Under the pieces are notes generated by a model. That model had not been told where the DNA came from. It was given only the letters and a program-made list of their open reading frames with translations, and made no database searches. Of a stretch of 64,000 nucleotides of DNA, positions 17,881-59,500 are shown one piece after another. The position numbers were made by a program, and so were the translations under genes. Source of the DNA: Oryzias latipes (taxonomy: Eukaryota > Chordata > Actinopteri > Beloniformes > Adrianichthyidae); the NCBI RefSeq assembly GCF_002234675.1, contig NC_019879.2:5275325-5339324 (forward strand), read 5' to 3'. Within the stretch, counting starts at the first letter, position 1; each line of letters opens with the position of its first letter.

Positions 17881-33766
<15,886 letters not shown>

Positions 33767-41799: not shown

Positions 41800-44700
41800 G
41801 TGAGTAATTCCAACATTGGACTTTCTGAAGCAAACTCTGCATTTTCTCTATTTGCACAGAGGTTTTCTAGCAGATATCTGATGGGAAAAAAACAAGTGCA
41901 AACATATTCTGATTTACAGATTCTTTATATCTAAATGTTTAAAACAATAGGTATCAAACTAGGTCAGGCAAACAATATATGACTTAAAGATAATCAATTG
42001 TATGTGGAAATGTCTTTTAAAATAAACAATATTCTTGAATTTCATTTTCTTTATCCAAGTTTGAACAAAAATGGTAAATTGATATGTTAGCATTGCAAAC
42101 TGGCTGTGAGAAAATGCTATGTGTAAATCTGACCAACGAGGATTGGTACATAATGATGAGGCATATTTCTTTATTCTCAAGGAAGTTAAAATAATCTGGA
42201 AATACTGTTTAATATCTCTATTTTAGTGAAACAGTAAAATTCATTGTGTGGTTCAGAAGGAAAATACTGTGTTATCTTAAAAAATCAGCACTTTGAATGT
42301 TACTTAAAAAGATCCTAAATAGAATAAGAAAGACCAAAGCAAATTTGGATCATTGTCAACATTTTTAAATAAATAAAAAACTGTCACACGTATTCAGTAC
42401 GGTAAGTACAGGTATGTGCCCTTTTCTTGTAATGCTTAGTCTTTCCCTTTATTCTTTTTCTCTTAGTTGGAAGGAATGGGTGATTGATCCAGCTGATCAT
42501 TCGTATTACATCTGGCTCCATGTGATGATAGTGCCCATTCTTTACAACTGGGTAATCATCATCTTGAGGTAAACAATTTTAACTTAGGTTATATAGTTGA
42601 GTGAAATTTCTTTTTAAATGTTTAACCTTTGTTCCATATGGACCATTGAAGTCAGTCTGGTTTCATTTTGCCAGGACATGTTTCAAAGCTATTGCTGTGA
42701 GCTACCTCCCTGTGTGGCTCACCCTGGACTATATGTCAGACCTTATGTATTATGCTGACACAATCCTCACTCTTCATACAGGTAACCCTTCTCATTTCGA
42801 CAACTGTACTTTTGATGCTGAATCAAAATATCAGACATATCCAAAGTGGAGTTCTTTCAAAATATTGGAGAAAAATGCACAAGTCATTGTATTCTCATTC
42901 TGCCAAATATGATCATAAATTTTTCTTTTCTTCTTTCCTTTGTTTTGTTGCTATTTTCAATTCAATTCAAATTTATTTATATAGCCCAATATTAAAACAA
43001 TAGCTTCATAATCGTATAATAAACATGAAATCAAAAAGAACATGAAGTCAGAGAATTCAATAGGTAATGGCTAAACTAAACCAAACAGACTAAACTAAAC
43101 TGGCATCCCTGCCCTTAGAGCCTCCTTCTCGGTAAGAAAAAACTCCTAAAAAACGTACTGCGGAAAAAAAAGAAGAAACCTCAGGAGTGTCCACATGCAG
43201 GGGGGATCCTCCCCCAGCACGGACAGCCGATGTACCAGGACTCTTATAGAAGAATTAGATAATCTAACCCTACAACTACATGTTTAAATAGTCCAGCAGA
43301 TGGGCTTCATCCAGATGAATTGGGGGGCAGCTGGGGGCAAGAGACAAGCCACAGGCAGGGTCCACAACCAAGTGAAGGAGCAGGAGCAGAGACGAGTCAA
43401 AGGCGAGGGAGAATAACCAATGTAGCAGAGCACAGATGAGCCAGTGGCAGGGTCCACAGCCAAGTGTACGAGCAGGAACGAGCCAACTGAAATCTGGAAC
43501 CACTCCCGCTCAACCGGAGATTGTGTGTTTAATCTGTACAGATTGTGTGTTTAATCTGTAATGTGCGTATAAAATGTATGCATAAATTACAGTGAGATTT
43601 GGGATGGGAATTAATACGATTTTTCTTCAACCTTCTCCTATTTCAAACCCTTTATCAATTTTCATTTATCATAGTTATTTAACTATTTTATTTAGAGAAA
43701 ATCAATCAGTCGAACAGTCAGAGTTGTATTTAACATAGTGAGGAAATGTTTGCTGATTTTCTTTTATTTCTGATTTAATGTTAAACTGTAAATATATATT
43801 TAATAAAATTATGAGTGTCAACAACACTAAAATATACCTATATAAAGCATATCATATAATTTTTTTAATTTAAAATATGAGAGTACTTTCACAGCAAAAA
43901 CAGCCCCCCTGTAAACATATCAGTCTACTGTGTAACATCCCTCAGCCCTTCAAGGTGTAAAGCCAAAACCATTGTTGGTGTTAAAAACAGAACTTGTGTT
44001 CATGTCACAAAAAATGGGGACACGGCTGGTTCCAGTTGCAGCAGGTTATATTAGTTTAAAAGTCCACAAAGCTAAACCAGGGTCAGGCAGGAAGGGGTCG
44101 ATATCAAGCATGAGAGCTTCAGAAGCTAGAGTAGTCAGGATCCAGGTGAGTTTCGGGGTGGGCAGCAGGCAAACGGAGTCAGAGACAAAACAGGATCAGG
44201 AAATCAAAAGATTAGATCCAGATATAACGTTCAGTGATGCAGGCAGAGACGCACAAACAATACTTCACACTGAGTGAGGCTCAGTGCAGTGCCTAAGTTT
44301 ACTGTGAGTGATTGCAAAAGAGAGTCAGGTGTGTGGCATCCAGAAACTGTGCGCTGCGGTTGCTGTGGATTCAGAACACTGGAGATGGTTCCCACTGGTG
44401 ACAGAGCTCTGACTTCTGACACTTTTGACCAAAATTTGGGTTCTTAGGCATTGTCTTGGGCAATGATTTCTAAATATATTTTTAGTCATCTTGAGACCTG
44501 TTCCAAGAAGTCTGTGTTTAATTTGTTTTCTCTTTTTATATACTTTAGGTTACTTAGACCAAGGCATCCTTATCAAGAACTTAACCCGTTTGAGGAAGCG
44601 CTACCTCACCTCCAAGCGCTTCCTGATCGACTTACTTTCCCTTCTTCCCACGGACTTTCTCTACTTTGTTTTTGGAATTGAAACTCCTATGGTGAGAGTC

Positions 44701-47700
44701 AACCGCCTACTCCGCATCCCGCGACTCAACGAGGCATTGGATCGCATGGAGACGAGAACTTCCTACCCCAACACTTTTCGTATCACCAAGCTCATGATGT
44801 ACATCTTTGTGCTGATCCACTGGAATGCCTGTCTCTACTTTTCGCTCTCTGATTACATTGGCTTTGGAATGGATCGTTGGGTCTATCCCAACATCTCCAA
44901 TCCAACTTTCGCCACTATGCAGCGGCAATACGTTTACTGCTTCTGGTTTTCTACAAATATCTTCACAACCATTGGAGACACACCACTTCCGGAAAGAGAA
45001 GAAGAGTTCTTATTTATGATTGCAGACCTGCTCATTGCTGTGTTGGTCTTTGCTTCAATTGTTGGTAATGTTGGCAGTGTCATAACAAGCCTGAGAGATC
45101 GTGATAACGTCTTCTTTCCGAATCATGAGCTGGTAAGTTTTAGGGTTGCTGAAAAATGTGAAGTAGTGTAGGCCCAAAGAGAAACATTTGAGTAAAGCCT
45201 TAGTCACAAGCACCCATATAGGGAGGTTGACTCGTACAGGTGATGAGGATTTTGACTTGTCTGGGCCCATGAAGGGTTGTGGACAGGAGTGTCTGCATTT
45301 TAAAGGGAGCACAGGTGTGTGTAGCAGTTCCCTTGAGGCTTGTACGGTCACTTCAGAGGAGGTCATGGAAATGGAATGTTCATTGTTAAGGTACCATTGT
45401 TTGGTCAAGTTTATCATGTAGGGATAATGTAAGTTGCACGCACATATGACGTACATGTGATACTGTCGTGCAATACCCTCATGTCAAACTCTAAATCTGC
45501 CTCCTTACTGATTGTGCGTGAATACTGCATACACATGGTGTGCAGGTGAACGTAAGTGCCCATAGGATGCCCACACAAACTACACTCTGATGGTCTAATT
45601 TCTCTAATTCTGACAGTCAGGCTTGCGTGCAAGTATTGCACAAGGAGACAATGCAAGAAGAGCGCCCCTGGAGAAGTGCGCAAGGTTTGGAGGGGGTTGA
45701 AAAAAATTCCTCTAACCTACTTCACCCTTACTTAACTTTAAGTGTTGTTTATGTGTTTGCTACGACCTGCCGCACGCAGCATGCCAGTAGAAAAAATGTC
45801 CATGAACATTTTTACTCTACAGATTCATTTAGCACTCTACAACCTTGACATTTCCTGCTGGCCACATGTGTGCCAGTACAAGTTGCCCATTGATCAGGAT
45901 CTACCTGTCAGGAAAGTTGTGACTAAGGCTTAAAAGATTTTGTGATGTCTGATATCCTGTAGATCACACTGTGTTTGATGGGGTATTACAGACTACATGA
46001 TTTGTCAAACCAGCTAAGGACAAGGGAACCTGTTTACAGTATCTTTACAGTTGGATCGATAACCAGTTCTCGTGTGTGATTATCCAAGAGCATGTTGCAT
46101 GTTTGAATGACTGCGAGTGAAGCTCAGGACACCAAACTGCAGTTAGCTAATTACATATGTCTTATCCCATTTGCTAGGAACCATTTTGGAATTGTTGGTC
46201 ACATCTTGTGTGTCCTCAGCCTAACTTTAAAATAACAAACATTTTTTGCAAGGTATCTTATTTTTCCAAAGTGATACAAAGTATGCAATTCTTCATCAAC
46301 AGGTGAAAGCATACCTGCGCAGCCACCATGTTAGCAAGGAGCTGCGACAGCGCATTGACAACTGGTACCAGCATCTCTACATAAACAAGAAGATGATGCG
46401 AGAGAACGAAATCCTGCTGCAGCTGCCTTTACACATGAGGACGGAGATTGGTGTCAGCGTTCACCTCCCCACACTCTCCAAAGTCACCATCTTCCAGAAC
46501 TGCGAGAAAAGCCTCCTGGAGGAGCTAGTCCTCAAGCTAACACCGCAGGTCAGGAGGGGAAAAGATGCAGTGCAACTAAAGGACTTATAGAAAGAATAAC
46601 TATACTGGTTTTACTTTGTTCTAAAGAAAAATCCTGTTTTTGGTGTTTTGTTTTTTTGAATTTGGCTTAAAATGACATAATCTTATTGAATGACCACTAA
46701 TAGTGCTTTCTTAAATTAGATCAAAAGATGATCAGGGTGGGACTTTGAAGACTTAAGCTTTTTTGAAACAATCTAAATGTATCAGGTTCAACATTCTGTA
46801 GCTTGCAGCAGTCGAGCATTTTCTTATAGTGCACGCTTGGATTACATTTAATGAGCTTTTGTGTTTTTATCTTTTAGGTGTTCAGTCCAGGAGAATATGT
46901 CTGCAGGAAGGGTGATGTGGGCCACGAAATGTATATCATCAAAGAGGGAAAACTTGCTGTTGTGGCAGATGACGGGGTCACAGAGTTTGCCGTGTTGAGT
47001 GCAGGGAATTTTTTTGGTGAAATTAGCATCCTCAATATTAGAGGTGAGTTGCATCTTTTGCACAAAACAAAGCTGCTACATATATGTTAGTTTTTTTTCT
47101 ATTGAAGAAATATTGTTGAGTGTTTAGATTTGTTAAAAACAAAAACAAAACTTTTTTTAAAATCAAAATGAATAAAGATATTATCTTTATTGTTGTTTTA
47201 CTCTTACTTTTAGCATTTTAAACTGTGCAATAAATGTTAATCTTATTTTTTCTTAAATCTTAAAAGTGAACCTTGTAACTGTAACTCCCCAGTGAATTTG
47301 CCAACCACATCATCGGTTTGATACTGACCCTCCATTAGCATAGTTTTCATCAAAATTGAATGTGAAGATTTCAAAAAGTTCTCAGCTTTGAAATTTCTGG
47401 TTTAAAACAAACAGGACAAGAGTCATGACAGATAATTGTTGAAATAAATAATCTTTTGGAATAAATCATTGGAACATTGTATACAGCTTTGCCTGGTCAT
47501 TTAGAGATTTTCCCCTTATAGTCTTGACCTTGTCTTTGCGTTGAAGTTTGGATTTCATACATTTTTATTTTGTCTCTTCCTGTTTGATCTTTTGTTGAAG
47601 CACAAACACTGTTTGATCTCTTTTTATTTTTATTTTGAAAAAATAAAATGACAATGTTAACCACTCAGAATTTAGTTTTTTTTAATAGTTTCAGGTTCAT

Positions 47701-50536: not shown

Positions 50537-53500
50537 GTGAGTTTTTGCCTAAAGGGGACGTTTAGCCTTGTTTCTTTCATCTTGACAGTTGAGTTAGCTT
50601 GTTGGCTACACTGACTCGTTTAGCTCTTATAACGAAACTAGCTGCCCTCTCTCATGAAGCCGCTTGACGTTCCTTTCACAAATGCCAATTATGTTTTTTA
50701 CTAAATCGTTTTTAAACTTACTTTTGTGTATGCTATTAGTCAGGATGATGAAAGCAGAATTATTATATCCCTCTAGCTTGTAGCTGAAATGATAACCAGG
50801 CCAAGCTAACGAGGTAACGTCACGGCTAGTTGTTCTTGTTGCTGCAGTTTTCGGGAGGATCATGTTATGATGTTCCTTGTTTTAGACTTGCTATTTTCAC
50901 TGTTTTCACTATAAAACCTTTAGGTTATGTTTGGGGGCTGGGTCAGGTTACCATTCACAATTCCCTTGGTGTCTTCATTCCACTTATGATGATGGTGGAG
51001 GGCTATTTGGGGGCCAGTGGCATTTTTTTTCTACAGACACTGCTCCGTTTTTAGCATCTTGAGATGACCCTGTGCACCAGTTCACAGAATATTACCTACC
51101 TGGAGGACAGGCTGAGAAAATGAGTGTTTAGAGTCACAGACAACAGATCCAGTGGATTAAGTTGTTTTTGGACTCTTTATTCTAAGAAACAGAAGAAGCA
51201 ATGTCATAGTAAATAACAAGTTTTAAGCAAGATAAAGCTATTTTGATTATAATTTTCCAGTAATATCCCCCGTTGTGTAAATAAGCATAATGATTAGCTT
51301 TACAAACAGCATATATTTATGTACCCATTGAATAACAAACAGCAGAAGCAAACAGATGCAAACTTAAACTTGAAGCTGCATGTAATTAATACCTTAAGCT
51401 GCTTCCGGTGTTTTCTTGTTTATCATCTATGGTTTTGTGTTTTTAATAAATGTGTACTGAGACTATCTTCAAAAAGAGTTACAAATGCATGAAACTTGAA
51501 GCATCCAGAACTCTTTCTCTGTCCTGTTAGAGCAGGACTGTGTTGTTGACTTACACGGATCACGCTGGTGTTTGCCTTGTGGGGCTGTAGTTGAGTATTG
51601 AAAGTTAAGTTTTGCTTAAACTAAAACTCCATCACTGCTGTTTACATTATTGCTTTAGAGTAAAGCACAAACATTTTTTCTTTTTAGATATTGTGTGTTG
51701 AGACGTTTAGTGGGTTGAGGGGTTTCAATTCCAGGCTAAACACTCCTTGTTTCTATGGGCAAAACTTTCGCCCTTTGACTACTTTGAATTGTACGATAGA
51801 ATTAAGTCAGCTGGTGTTAAAAAAACAGTGTTTGTTTTTCTGTATGAATTGCCTGACTTGTGCTGTTCCAAGTGTCGTCAGTGCTTTGCAGCACTTAAGT
51901 GTTCATGTTTCGTCATTGCTGCTGCGCCTCCTCATGTGGTGTTATGAGTGTGATGATTAGATGGACGTTTGTTAAAATGAAAGCTCTCACTGTCTGAAAA
52001 TGCAGAAATGTTTTTGTTTAGAAGACCAAAATAGTGGCTGTACTGCAACCATTTTTTTTGTTGGATAGTGTCGTGTCTGCACAGTTGACAATACATTAAA
52101 ACGCCTTAATACTATTTTTAACAATGGATCTTTGAATTATATACTCAAATAGTTGCACTGATTTTAAAAGGGCCTTATTTAAGTGGAACCTAGAATAATA
52201 AGTGCTTTGAAAGAACTGTGTTTTAAAAAACTGACTTTGTCATTTCAGCTTTATAGTCCCAGCATGAAACTCCAACAGCATTGCAGCTACAGACACAAAA
52301 TCTTCCACAATGATTTCATTTAAAAGCCATTTTTTCAATCATACAGTTAGTAATCTAGGCAGAAAAGACCAAGATATGAAATTTAATTTGATAGGTAAAA
52401 TTGTAATACGTTGAGATTTTACTTGAAACGTTTTAGTGATCCAGCTCTCGTTCTTTTATTTTAAAATTCACCCTGACCGTTATTTATTTCCTTCACCATT
52501 GACCATAAGTGAGAACTGGACTGAGTGACCCCTCCCTCCTCGCGTTGCAGGACGTACTCGTTGCCAAAATCCCATAGATTTCTATTGTGAAATAAACAGC
52601 TATTACTCAGATATGTTTGTCAGAACAACCGTTCTTTCCCTACTAGCTTTTTTAATGTATTTGCGAATCCTAATTTGTTTCATGGTATTTCTGTGGTGCA
52701 AGTTATTCATGTTATCAACTGACCAATCAGATGCCTCAATAAAAATATGTGGTTCCTACTGGCCCCAACGTTCAAAACGTTTGACAGTTTTTGTGTAGCC
52801 CGCCTTCAAGTGGTAGGCGTGCGGACTTCCATTGAGCTCACTCCTGATTGATGTGTGGTTGCCATAGAAACATTGAATCAGGCCGACTCGCACCAATCAC
52901 TGGTTACTCATCATTTCTGGCTCCAACCCGTCGACGCTCGTATCGCGACAAGATGGCAACTGAATTGACTTCATTTGGTTTGAACCAGAAGTAAACCATT
53001 TTCTATGGCATCACGCTCACTCGGTCCAGTTTTCATATACAGTCAATGGATGAAGTCTTTACTTTGTTTTGGAAGTGAGGTTTATTTTGAAGCACAAGTT
53101 TGTTAGAGTAAACTCAAAGGCGGTTTTTTTTTTTTTAGCAATGCTGGTTTTTGACCCAGTTCTTAATGTAACAACACGTCTTGCCTCCCTTTGTCTGATT
53201 GCAGGTGCAGGAGATCACAACTTGTTCACATCTCTTTATACATCATTGGCTCAACAACTTCCCAGGGAGCCAATGGAGTGGAGGAGGTGAGCTCTGCATT
53301 TTTCTTTCATGACAAAATAGCCGACAATGCGAGGACATTTTCATCAAGAACTGCTTCGATTTTTGAGTGATAAGAAAGACAGCCTTGCTACAGACTTAAG
53401 GGAGATAAATGTGGGTAAACGCAGCTTAAAGCAATGTATTTAAAAAAATAAAGAATGTTTGGGTTTCATAAATGATTACAGAAAGAGGAAGTGTTGGATC

Positions 53501-56500
53501 CATCTAGGAAGAGGCATTCTTTTTTGAGTTTGAAGCTTTGAGACTTTTAAATCTTCAGTTTTTTAGTTAGGCTTTTTTTTCCCTATGTTATTACTCTGAA
53601 ATCTCCCAGATCCACTATTTGCTAGAGACAGAAGCAGGACATGTAGAAATGGATTATGTTCGTGGCGCTTCAGCAGATTGTTACTGTTGAGAAAATATAC
53701 CTTCATTATAGAAACGCCCTGAGTGTCCTTGTAGCTTACAATGTCGTGTTCTTCAGATCGAGCCTGGCACACTGTGATCACATGATGCTCCAGTTATGCC
53801 TCATGTGCCAACTGTTCCTTTACTTTAAGATTATGGTTCATACAGATCACTAAAATCTTCGAACCTGTTACATTAGAGAGGAGATTTAGTGTCAGTGTCC
53901 TGTTATTAGGTTGTTAAATAAAAGTTCCATATTGAAGATTAGCATACTTAGGTTTACTATTGTTCTATAGTTTCTACAAACATAATAAATAAAATCTATT
54001 TAGTTATTTTATAGCAAACAAAGTGAGAATTTCAGTTAGAGCCAAAAGAATGAAAATACTCTCGACAGAAAAAGCTTTTGCAAAATGAATGTTGGCATGA
54101 AGAAATGAAGCTAAAATAAACAGCATGGCATAAATTATTTCATATTATTTAAAAGAAGTTTGTGAAAGCTCAAAATTTGCAATATTTCGTTACCAACAAA
54201 CAACAAATGTTCCTAAAAAAGCAAAAGAGCATCAGAATTTAAAAATGCCGGATGGCTTTTTAGCTTAAAAACACAAGTTGACTTATATGGAAGCGATTAT
54301 GTAGCATAAATAAAAAGCAAAGTCAAAACCAGAAATGCTTTTTCATTTTCAAAATGAAGCTGCATTTTTTGACTCAAAAATATAATGAAAAAGCAATCCA
54401 CCAAAATGCTTTTTCATTTCCTTCCTCAACACAGCTTATTCTGTCACTTAATTAAAATTAAAATGAAAATGGTATTTGACATTTCATTTTCAAGACGTTC
54501 CATGGTAAATGTGTAGCATAATTCATTTAGAAATGTCTAATTTGACCATCAAAATGGATTAATAGAAATGCTTTTTAATTTTCAAAATGAAGCTGCATTT
54601 TTTGACTCAAAATTAAAAAGAAAAAGCAATATTTCAAAATGCTTTTTCATTTCCTTCCTCAATACAGCTTATTCTGTCACTTAATTAAAATGATAAATAA
54701 AATGGTATTTGACATTTCATTTTCAAGACGTTCCATGGTAAATGTGTACCAAAATTCATTTAGAAATGTCTAATTTGACAATTAAAATGGATTAACAGAA
54801 ATGCTTTTTAATTTTCAAAATGTAGCTGCATTTTTTGACTCAAAATTAAAAAGAAAAAGCAATACTTCAAAATGCTTTTTCATTTTATACTTAAAACCGC
54901 TTATTCTGTGTCATAATTCAAACGAAAATGCAAAGAGGGGATTGCATTTGCATTTTAACATCCACCCCGCGCAAGTTGTCACAATATTCAATTCGAAAAA
55001 GCATTAGCAGAGGGGAGGCGGGGCGATGACGTCACTGCTTTCTCCGTGTGTCCGGCTGCTGACTGACGCACACACACGCACCAGGAGCAGACTGTGTTAG
55101 CGGCAGAGACGAGGGTTTTGTGATGGTTGTGAACTTCTGATGAGTTTCCACAGCTTCTCAGGACTAAGTAGCTGCATGTCCGCCTTCTGCGGTCCTCCTC
55201 CCGACGCACCGCGGACAAGCTTTGTTCTGCGGACCGCCAGCTGCCTTCGCACAGCGGAGCGCGAAGCTCCCGACGATCGCTGAAGGAGGAAATGCTGCTA
55301 CGATCTGAGAAACCATCATATGAATTTGTGTTTCCAGTGGTGTCCAGAACAAAATAAAGACTGATTCCCACATATTTACACCTTGATCTGCAGCTTCGCG
55401 GTGAATTTGCTGTTTGATTTATTAAGATCCAGGAATCCAGGTTTGAGCTGGCCAGGTCCAGCGGTTTTTGAACAGGACCCGCTTTTACGTAATCTTAATG
55501 TGAAAAATGCAGCAGAATGTTCCTTCAGCTCCCTCGCGAATCAGAAGCTGTGAATCGTAAGCCAACTTTAGCGTCGTCTGACCGCACAGATTTAAAAACA
55601 TATGATGGAGCAGAGCAGGCCGTAAAATATTAGCATAACTGTAATAAAAGCACATTATGAAGATAGTCTCCTGCAGCTTTGCGCTGAGTGAGTGTTTTTG
55701 GTCCAACCAGCAACGTTTAGCATCTAGAAATCTGCTGTCTGATGATGGAGCTCCAGCTGTCATCAAACAGTAAATTCACCGCGAAGCTGCAGATCAAGGT
55801 GTAAATATCTGTGAATTACATCAGTCTTTATTTTGTTCTGGACACCACTGGAAACACAAATTCATATGATGGTTTCTCAGATCGTAGCAGCATTTCCTCC
55901 TTCAGCGATCGTCGGGAGCTTCGCGCTCCGCTGTGCGAAGGCAGCTGGCGGTCCGCAGAACAAAGCTTGTCCGCGGTGCGTCGGGAGGAGGACCGCAGAA
56001 GGCGGACATGCAGCTACTTAGTCCTGAGAAGCTGTGGAAACTCATCAGAAGTTCACAACCATCACAAAACCCTCGTCTCTGCCGCTAACACAGTCTGCTC
56101 CTGGTGCGTGTGTGTGCGTCAGTCAGCAGCCGGACACACGGAGAAAGCAGTGACGTCATCGCCCCGCCTCCCCTCTGCTAATGCTTTTTCGAATTGAATA
56201 TTGTGACAACTTGCGCGGGGTGGATGTTAAAATGCAAATGCAATCCCCTCTTTGCATTTTCGTTTGAATTATGACACAGAATAAGCGGTTTTAAGTATAA
56301 AATGAAAAAGCATTTTGAAGTATTGCTTTTTCTTTTTAATTTTGAGTCAAAAAATGCAGCTACATTTTGAAAATTAAAAAGCATTTCTGTTAATCCATTT
56401 TAATTGTCAAATTAGACATTTCTAAATGAATTTTGGTACACATTTACCATGGAACGTCTTGAAAATGAAATGTCAAATACCATTTTATTTATCATTTTAA

Positions 56501-59500
56501 TTAAGTGACAGAATAAGCTGTATTGAGGAAGGAAATGAAAAAGCATTTTGAAATATTGCTTTTTCTTTTTAATTTTGAGTTAAAAAATGCAGCTTCATTT
56601 TGAAAATTAAAAAGCATTTCTATTAATCCATTTTGATGGTCAAATTAGACATTTCTAAATGAATTATGCTACACGTTTACCATGGAACGTCTTGAAAATG
56701 AAATGTCAAATACCATTTTCATTTTAATTTTAATTAAGTGACAGAATAAGCTGTGTTGAGGAAGGAAATGAAAAAGCATTTTGGTGGATTGCTTTTTCAT
56801 TATATTTTTGAGTCAAAAAATGCAGCTTCATTTTGAAAATGAAAAAGCATTTCTGGTTTTGACTTTGCTTTTTATTTATGCTACATAATCGCTTCCATAG
56901 ACTTATAGTGCATCTTTTATAATGTGTTTAAGACAGAAATAACCATTTTGTTTGTTTGAAAATGTTTTTAAGGTTGTTAAGTTGGCAGATTAAATTTTTT
57001 TTTTCTTATTGATGCTATAAAAAGTTAACAAAAATTACTGCTATCAAACTGACTGAGGGGAGTAAATGTTGTCAAAGGGAAGGTTTAGTATTTTCTAATG
57101 TTTTCAGAGAATCTTTACTGAGGAACAGTGTTGTTCAAAATCTACATAAAAAAACAAACCAAAATGTAGTCTTTTGAAGTTCTGGAGAGCCCTTATAACC
57201 CAGCTTTCTTGATGACGGGCCTCATTTGACACGAGTCCTAGTGAATACTGAAACTGCGGCTGTGAACTTGTCTTTGTGTGCAGGACTTACGGCCGTGCAC
57301 CAAAAATGATTCACCTCGAGGCTAATTTTGTCCAATTTAAAGAGGAGCTGCTCCCAAAGGATGGCAACAAGGCTCTTCTCACCTTTCCCTTTCTCCACAT
57401 CTACTGGACCGACTGCTGTGTGAGTAAAACACACACCAACACACACAGAGTTTACTCGCTGTCATTTTGGAAAATGTTTCAGATACTTTAGGAGGAATGC
57501 TAGAAGGCTAGTAAAGGTTTTATGATGAAAAGTTTGTACTTTTTGTGTTGGCTCAAACGGTTTGACATTGATGGCAGAAATGCATAGACCGCTCCTGATG
57601 CAGTTAATATTATATGTATTTATAAAATGTCCAAAAACGTTTTGTAAAATCAACAATTCAGAGGAATTATGTTTGAATGGTTGCTATTTAAACACCATCA
57701 TTTATACCTTTATTTTCCTATATTTACGTAACATTCTTAATTTCATATTCATTCCAGTTTTGTTATTCTAATTGTCTGCTCTATTTAAAAGAGAATTGTT
57801 TTTTCAGAACTTCAGAACTTTTTGCAATAAACTGAACTTCAGTCCGTTATTTTTTCATCTATAAAAAAACTTGATGCCTTTACTTTGAAAATGTGAACCT
57901 TCGTCGACACTTTGACAGTAATGGATGCTGGTTGTTTAGTTTATTTATACGCCTAAAATCCAAGTGTATATTTTTTTTGCAATGCAACTACATTTAGAAA
58001 TATCGCATCTGAACAAACTTGTACGTTACAAATATTTGTACTCGCTTTTTCATTTTGTGAATATCCGAGTATTCAGATACTCACTACGGCTCTAGTTTTT
58101 TAGAAGCGGAAACTGTATTCCATTATCAGGATTGTGTCAGCTCGTCTCCATTATCACTGGAAGGGAACTGGTTCACTCTGTGTTTTCCAAATGTCACAGA
58201 TCCAGACAGAAGTTTATAAGGATTTATTCAAGGGTTCGGGTGGATACTCTGTTCTGATTGGCTGCTGGGTGTGAATTGAGTAAGGGTTAATGGCCGCCGA
58301 CGTTATCAGAAATTAACGAACGCCGTGGAAGCCTGAATGCGGCGGACGGTTCACTTCGCGGAAGGCTTCTGTGGCCTGTGTCAATTTCTGAAAATGTACA
58401 CTTCATCCCTGACAGAGTGATGAAGACCTTCCAGCATTAATATAAAGGGTAAACAGGGCATTATTTTAGTGTCCACCATTCTGTGGACGTACTTCTCATG
58501 GGAATAACGGTGAAGAAAATCAGCGCAAAGCAGGAACTCACTGCTGCTGACTGTGCAGCAGGTCCGCTTGAGGAAGTTCTGTCATCAGCTCGGACTGCAT
58601 GAGAACTGCTGTGTTGCGGTAATGAACCTGTGCTGTTGTTGGCTTGGACCCTCCAGGACTTTTAGAGTAGCTCTTTGACTCTCTAAAAAAAAAAAAGTGT
58701 AAAATTCATCTCATTCCTGTTCTGATTTCTCATTGAAAGTCCAAGCAGCATTTAGGTTCTTGTCTGAGCGACTGCAGTGTCCTCAGTCACAGTTCAGTCA
58801 GGTGAGACTCGCCAGATTTGATCATTTAAACTAATTGCAAAAAGTGTTAGTTTAGGGCAAACATGCTTTTGGTCAAACGCAATTCTTTTAAAAAAACACA
58901 AAATGGCTACTAAACATTGAATATCCACCACAATTCACTACAATAAGGATGTTTGGCTCAAAGCTCAGAGTCCAGCTCCAAACCCTTTTCTTGTCCAGTT
59001 TTCTTACTCTCTTGAGTCTTATATAACAAGTGACTCATGCTGACGTCCACCTCTGCTTTTTCCAGCTAAATTAGAACAAATGCTCACAACAAGCATCAGT
59101 CAGTAACGCCAGTGACATCAGTATCTTATCGTAGAGCAGGTTTTCTTAATGGGGAAGTGTACAGTTGTTGGTGAGCTGTTGTTGTTTCCTTGTTCTTCAG
59201 CAATCCTGTGATTATCCACAACAGACGTGCCGCTTACAGGAAAAGCCATACACCTCAGTGGTTAACAGTTTCATGTCAGCTAGTTAATCCCATCTGGATC
59301 TGATGGGACTGCTTGTTGATGTCTGTGTCCACAGTTTAAGGTGTTTGTCAGCTATGCTAGTGTTTTGCAGTTGTTCTCTTCTTTGTGTGATCTCACATCA
59401 GCCCATAATGTTGAGATCAGGGCTCTAAAGAGGTCACACCATCTGTTGCCAGACTTTTTGCCCTTCTTATGGCTGAAAATAGCTCTGAAGTCTGGTCCCG

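Follow-up and report, generated by a model that had tools for sequence, protein, structure and literature searches.

A long-inverted-repeat insertion in a TRAPPC10 intron of medaka and its dispersed transposon family, probably a member of the IS3EU superfamily

The insertion in TRAPPC10

We analysed a stretch of 64,000 nucleotides of the medaka (Oryzias latipes) genome, here called the window (contig NC_019879.2, positions 5,275,325 to 5,339,324 of the forward strand; coordinates below are those of the window). Within an intron of TRAPPC10 it holds a long inverted repeat that is probably a copy of a multicopy, non-autonomous DNA transposon family of foldback type with long terminal inverted repeats (TIRs), IS3EU being the most likely superfamily. 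On either side of the element, open frames on the plus strand match PF23036, the N-terminal profile of TRAPPC10, which bears out the intronic location given in the original prediction. The frame with the next exon (57252..57488) matches profile positions 37-94 (45.7 bits, E 5.2e-12), and that with the upstream exon (53054..53287) matches positions 7-37 (20.1 bits, E 3.2e-4); the upstream exon alone scores below the cut-off of 27 bits, but the profile runs on from one match to the other. Across 53500-57500 there were no Rfam matches up to an E value of 1.

The element is bounded by two copies of the hexamer GACTTA, read directly from the sequence at 54280..54285 and 56900..56905, which form its target-site duplication (TSD). 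An inverted-repeat search placed the left arm at 54286..55365 (plus strand), starting with TATGGAAGCG, and the right arm, which mirrors it and terminates in CGCTTCCATA, at 55820..56899 (minus strand). Base-by-base alignment of the arms, each 1080 nt long, revealed only two differences between them, at 54510 (T/C) and 54604 (G/A), and blastn lengthened the arms to 1133/1138 nt at 99.1% identity, upholding their claimed near-identity. The exact arms are separated by 454 nt; once a weaker inner extension of each arm is counted (55364..55418, plus strand, 95%, and 55762..55816, minus strand), about 343 nt of true spacer is left (55419..55761). The original prediction had every coordinate, both ends and the GACTTA flanks exactly right. 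It had also described the whole as a palindrome of 2.6 kb, and here the mirror-image arms are real, but the term is overstated for an element with a non-palindromic spacer inside and outer arms that are tandem arrays.

Each arm has an AT-rich outer part, with a tandem array and six regularly spaced motifs, and a CpG-rich inner part. In the outer, AT-rich part of the left arm (54330..54934, plus strand), a repeat and motif scan identified a 233-bp tandem repeat present 2.6 times and six 16-bp AAATGCTTTTTNATTT motifs spaced by 71 and 162 bp. This motif has 12 matches in the window, every one within the element, while none was expected from 100 shuffles; likewise the terminal 20-mer, allowing up to three mismatches, has two sites in the window against none expected in the shuffles. 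The AAATGCTTTTTNATTT motifs are candidate transposase-binding sites. The inner left arm contains a CpG-rich block (54980..55310, plus strand; GC 0.57, observed/expected CpG 0.97), with a GC box at 55017 and a cAMP response element (CRE), TGACGTCA, at 55027; their counterparts in the right arm lie at 56161 (GC box) and 56151 (CRE). The block may be regarded as promoter-like. Long TIRs with internal tandem repeats thus stand on either side of a middle domain, as in foldback elements.

Among the 31 stop-to-stop frames of at least 40 aa that overlap the element, seven were tested against Pfam and none had a match over the cut-off. Because these frames gave no match, the element is presumably mobilised in trans.

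Dispersed copies, target sites and an empty site

The ends of the element are abundant in the medaka genome. With up to two mismatches, the terminal 20-mer occurred 659 times in forward and 665 times in reverse orientation in 734 Mb, whereas the reversed control occurred in neither (0 + 0); these figures count ends, units of tandem arrays included, and not elements. Searched with 601 bp of the left arm, the genome gave at least 43 matches (40 of 2108 candidates were scored), and the 454-nt stretch around the spacer was repeated genome-wide, the 40 full-length matches scored, out of 823 candidates, being 94-100% identical. From the best arm and spacer matches we took 46 further loci (numbered with the prefix L), a sample that is tilted to young, spacer-bearing copies. 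Both ends were present in 41 of the 47 loci, the window copy included, and the other six (L021, L028, L034, L048, L049 and L052) were dropped.

Copies in this first set are 1671-2849 bp long, with one to four repeat-unit anchors per arm. Exact 6-bp TSDs of differing sequence flanked 38 of the 41 two-ended copies and two more had a single mismatch; at L017, in a CA-rich stretch, the 6-bp match was absent and an exact 7-bp match was found instead. A second set was drawn from the list of ends and comprised 12 of 15 regions, two being tandem arrays (L067, L068) and one repeating L054 (L069); here the TSD was exact at eight loci, had one mismatch at two and had two mismatches at two. Dozens of copies are built on one plan but have different flanks, and their TSDs are clean. 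The original prediction had called the survival of such a palindrome notable, a judgement that we do not support for one of hundreds in a family, with arms that are parted by a spacer.

Reconstruction of the pre-insertion sites of 40 of the 41 copies (L017 was left out) revealed a symmetrical target preference among the 18 offsets examined. At the third base beyond the TSD, 68 of 80 half-sites had G or C (p 3.5e-17), as did 54 of 80 at the TSD's own outer base (p 4.0e-7). Such symmetry is what would be expected of a symmetrical integrase-type complex.

At L066 a family copy is nested within the arm of another copy, flanked by the TSD GCTGAC. When its flanks were joined through a single GCTGAC and compared with an uninterrupted arm, 175 of 195 positions were identical, and the sole gap, of 1 nt, lay 12 bp from the junction. 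The host arm at L066 is a paralogous empty site in which the 6 bp are present once. Together with the GACTTA flanks of the window copy and the TSDs of the family, this site supports the proposed insertion with a 6-bp target duplication.

Ends of the element have also entered a satellite. On contig C1, at about 17.55-17.60 Mb (L067 and L068), lies a tandem array with units of 2264-2268 bp, four of which, near 17.59 Mb, are 99.4-99.96% identical in pairwise comparison. Every unit holds a stretch of about 273 bp from the left end of the element, and the array is thus a satellite that took up the end of a transposon.

Arm matching within and between copies

Arm statistics were compiled from the 14 of the 41 copies with a length of 2595-2630 bp, those of different length being left out. 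The two arms of one copy diverged by 1.40% on average, compared with 2.86% between copies, and none of 20000 random pairings was as close. In the window copy, a comparison of 11 copies drawn from the first 24 loci found 17 non-consensus sites present in both arms (seven of them private) and two present in one arm. The comparison of 14 copies gave 16 two-arm sites (four private) and four one-arm sites, the two extra one-arm variants sitting at the edge of the alignment, outside the exact arm. The arms of the window copy also grouped as sisters with a support of 0.993 and a long shared branch. Because variants common to both arms must begin in one of them, the arms were homogenised in the lineage of the window copy, and we regard this homogenisation as real.

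The same three observations (many two-arm and few one-arm variants, sister arms on a long shared branch, and lower divergence within than between copies) would be expected if the arms of this family owed their identity to ongoing gene conversion, or to repair from a hairpin template, at each locus, in which case the window copy may be old. Steady conversion should, however, match the arms of all copies, and sister arms were found in only five of the 14 full-length copies, while the nearest relative was the partner arm for 16 of 28 arms. Arm divergence was 1.0-3.9% in 10 of the 14 copies, and 2.2-3.9% in L022, L038 and L039. Conversion in place is thus an unlikely explanation, and since sister arms are confined to five of the 14 copies, a recent insertion from a source with matched arms is the likelier history. 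Where the original prediction offered recent insertion or continuing arm-to-arm conversion, a recent origin and/or homogenised arms stand, whereas continuing conversion as a general process does not.

On this evidence homogenisation would belong to the source or to the act of transposition, with independent drift afterwards, rather than to steady conversion at each locus. The identity of the arms in the window copy would be the product of homogenisation between them, either ahead of a recent insertion or at about the same time, the two single-arm changes having been acquired later. A further possibility, which we hold to be quite improbable, is that transposition itself re-matches the arms, so that fresh insertions begin identical and later drift. 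An integrase-type element might then copy arm to arm, for instance when an intermediate is replicated on a hairpin template or with a switch of template, and, were this true, its signature would be the private two-arm variants and few one-arm changes of the window copy alongside diverged arms elsewhere.

Superfamily, mobilisation and related elements

IS3EU families are described as having TA..TA termini and TSDs usually of 6 bp (PMC10045372), and a fungal IS3EU set has ends of the form TAYGG..CCRTA, TIRs longer than 30 bp and 6-bp TSDs (PMC12730594). The window copy begins with TATGG and ends with CCATA, its TIRs far exceed 30 bp, and the 6-bp TSD recurs in both sets of loci and at the empty site of L066. 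The medaka copy differs from IS3EU elements in lacking a recognised transposase and in its arms of about 1.1 kb with tandem repeats and a CpG-rich block.

Several points weigh against this assignment. It rests on the ends and the TSD length, which are largely common to GingerRoot, a group that shares the TSD length and mostly has TA ends (PMC10045372). Although 40 of the 41 copies start with TATGG and 39 end with CCATA, the loci were selected by similarity to the window copy and their ends by a limit of three substitutions, and this uniformity comes partly from selection. An autonomous copy with the family's ends was not found, and the two longest end-to-end copies encountered, L055 (6.55 kb) and L056 (4.9 kb), were rejected as autonomous partners, as their inserts carry reverse transcriptase (RVT_1). 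The rva_4 integrases (PF24764), which we take to mark IS3EU, have 152 or more matches in the genome; none of the 150 listed lies closer than 10 kb to an exact end in the incomplete lists of ends, the nearest being 33 kb away and 116 of them sharing a contig with a listed end. The filing under IS3EU is therefore provisional.

The rva_4 matches fall into several size classes, 49 of those listed being in 76-aa frames with nearly equal scores, and by these matches the medaka genome appears to hold several integrase-type gene families. Pfam rve_3 has at least 150 genome matches, many in frames of more than 1000 aa presumed to be long terminal repeat (LTR) elements. Of the rve_3 loci inspected as candidate partners, L073 has an H2C2 integrase that looks Gypsy-like by eye, and L080 has H2C2 and rve in a 388-aa frame. 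Within the 3.7-3.9 kb examined of L080 and of L081, no TAYGG..CCRTA pair was found that had either a TSD or matching ends. The terminal 20-mer had no matches in viral contigs, and the left arm had none in phages, as expected for a fish element.

Other superfamilies fit less well. The TSDs of hAT, P and MULE elements are 7-10 bp long and those of piggyBac/Teratorn are TTAA, whereas the medaka family has a 6-bp TSD of varying sequence in 38 of 41 copies. Polinton/Maverick elements have AG..CT ends, a 6-bp TSD, TIRs of about 1 kb and a virus-like gene set. A non-autonomous member of that group would account for the TSD and the long TIRs, and Polinton integrases are handled together with those of IS3EU and GingerRoot in PMC10045372. 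The medaka ends, TATGG..CCATA, are nevertheless different and match the published IS3EU ends (PMC12730594), and the seven frames tested gave no Pfam match over the cut-off; we judge membership in Polinton/Maverick very unlikely. Near-identical inverted repeats are hard to assemble, but the idea that the arms were collapsed or mirrored in assembly is scarcely credible for a design repeated in dozens of independently flanked copies with clean TSDs and arms that differ at two sites.

The medaka family also resembles elements described elsewhere. Dada, like it, occurs in medaka and has TSDs of 6-7 bp; unlike it, Dada-U6 and Dada-U1 lack TIRs, and the Dada superfamily as a whole targets small-RNA genes (PMC3706591). 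The medaka element has 1.08-kb TIRs and scattered sites of varied target sequence, such as the TRAPPC10 intron, and was not assigned to Dada. Tetris of Drosophila virilis is a non-autonomous foldback element whose TIRs contain tandem repeats of about 220 bp, compared with 233 bp in medaka, and which contributed to satellite arrays (PMC4079207); in medaka, similarly, the 2.27-kb array on C1 carries 273 bp of the element's end. It differs in its host, its 8-10-bp TSD and its placement in Mutator (PMC4079207). Galileo, a Drosophila element of the P superfamily, similarly has long, internally repetitive TIRs, 98-100% identical within a copy, and many structural variants; its 7-bp flanking duplications and P-type transposase set it apart (PMC3573991).

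No paper on the medaka element appeared among those listed in literature searches; its terminal 10-mer occurs in 39 papers, and the 10 of these that were listed look unrelated by title. In Table 2 of a teleost survey from 2016 (PMC4746887), the IS3EU row has one value, at the zebrafish position, and is blank for medaka. Because that row has no medaka value, the family may have been uncatalogued as IS3EU in the survey; it may already have a name in Repbase or Dfam.

Elsewhere in the window, a second long inverted repeat of about 708 bp (1-707 and 2194-2901; 98.6% identical, about 1.5 kb apart) possibly belongs to another long-TIR element; its left arm begins at the first base of the window and is perhaps cut. 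A hairpin-forming stretch of about 80 bp at 32838-32919, 87% self-complementary, is perhaps a small miniature inverted-repeat transposable element (MITE). An Ion_trans (PF00520) exon at 44467-45168 belongs to an ion-channel gene at about 44.4-48.7 kb, by eye apparently a cyclic-nucleotide-gated channel, which shares its strand with TRAPPC10 and lies upstream of it.

For the medaka family, with IS3EU as the most likely placement, we envisage that an integrase-type (DDE) transposase from elsewhere in the genome would bind the terminal TATGGAAGCG and perhaps also the regular 16-bp motifs of the 233-bp repeats. It would join the ends to the target with a 6-bp stagger, gap repair producing the duplication. 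The long arms probably go back to a larger element, one end of which, with its end repeats and promoter, was duplicated in inverted orientation. An odd palindrome thereby becomes a tractable transposon family, with hundreds of ends, 6-bp duplications and a measurable target preference, and its copies form a natural test set for the time over which inverted arms remain alike.

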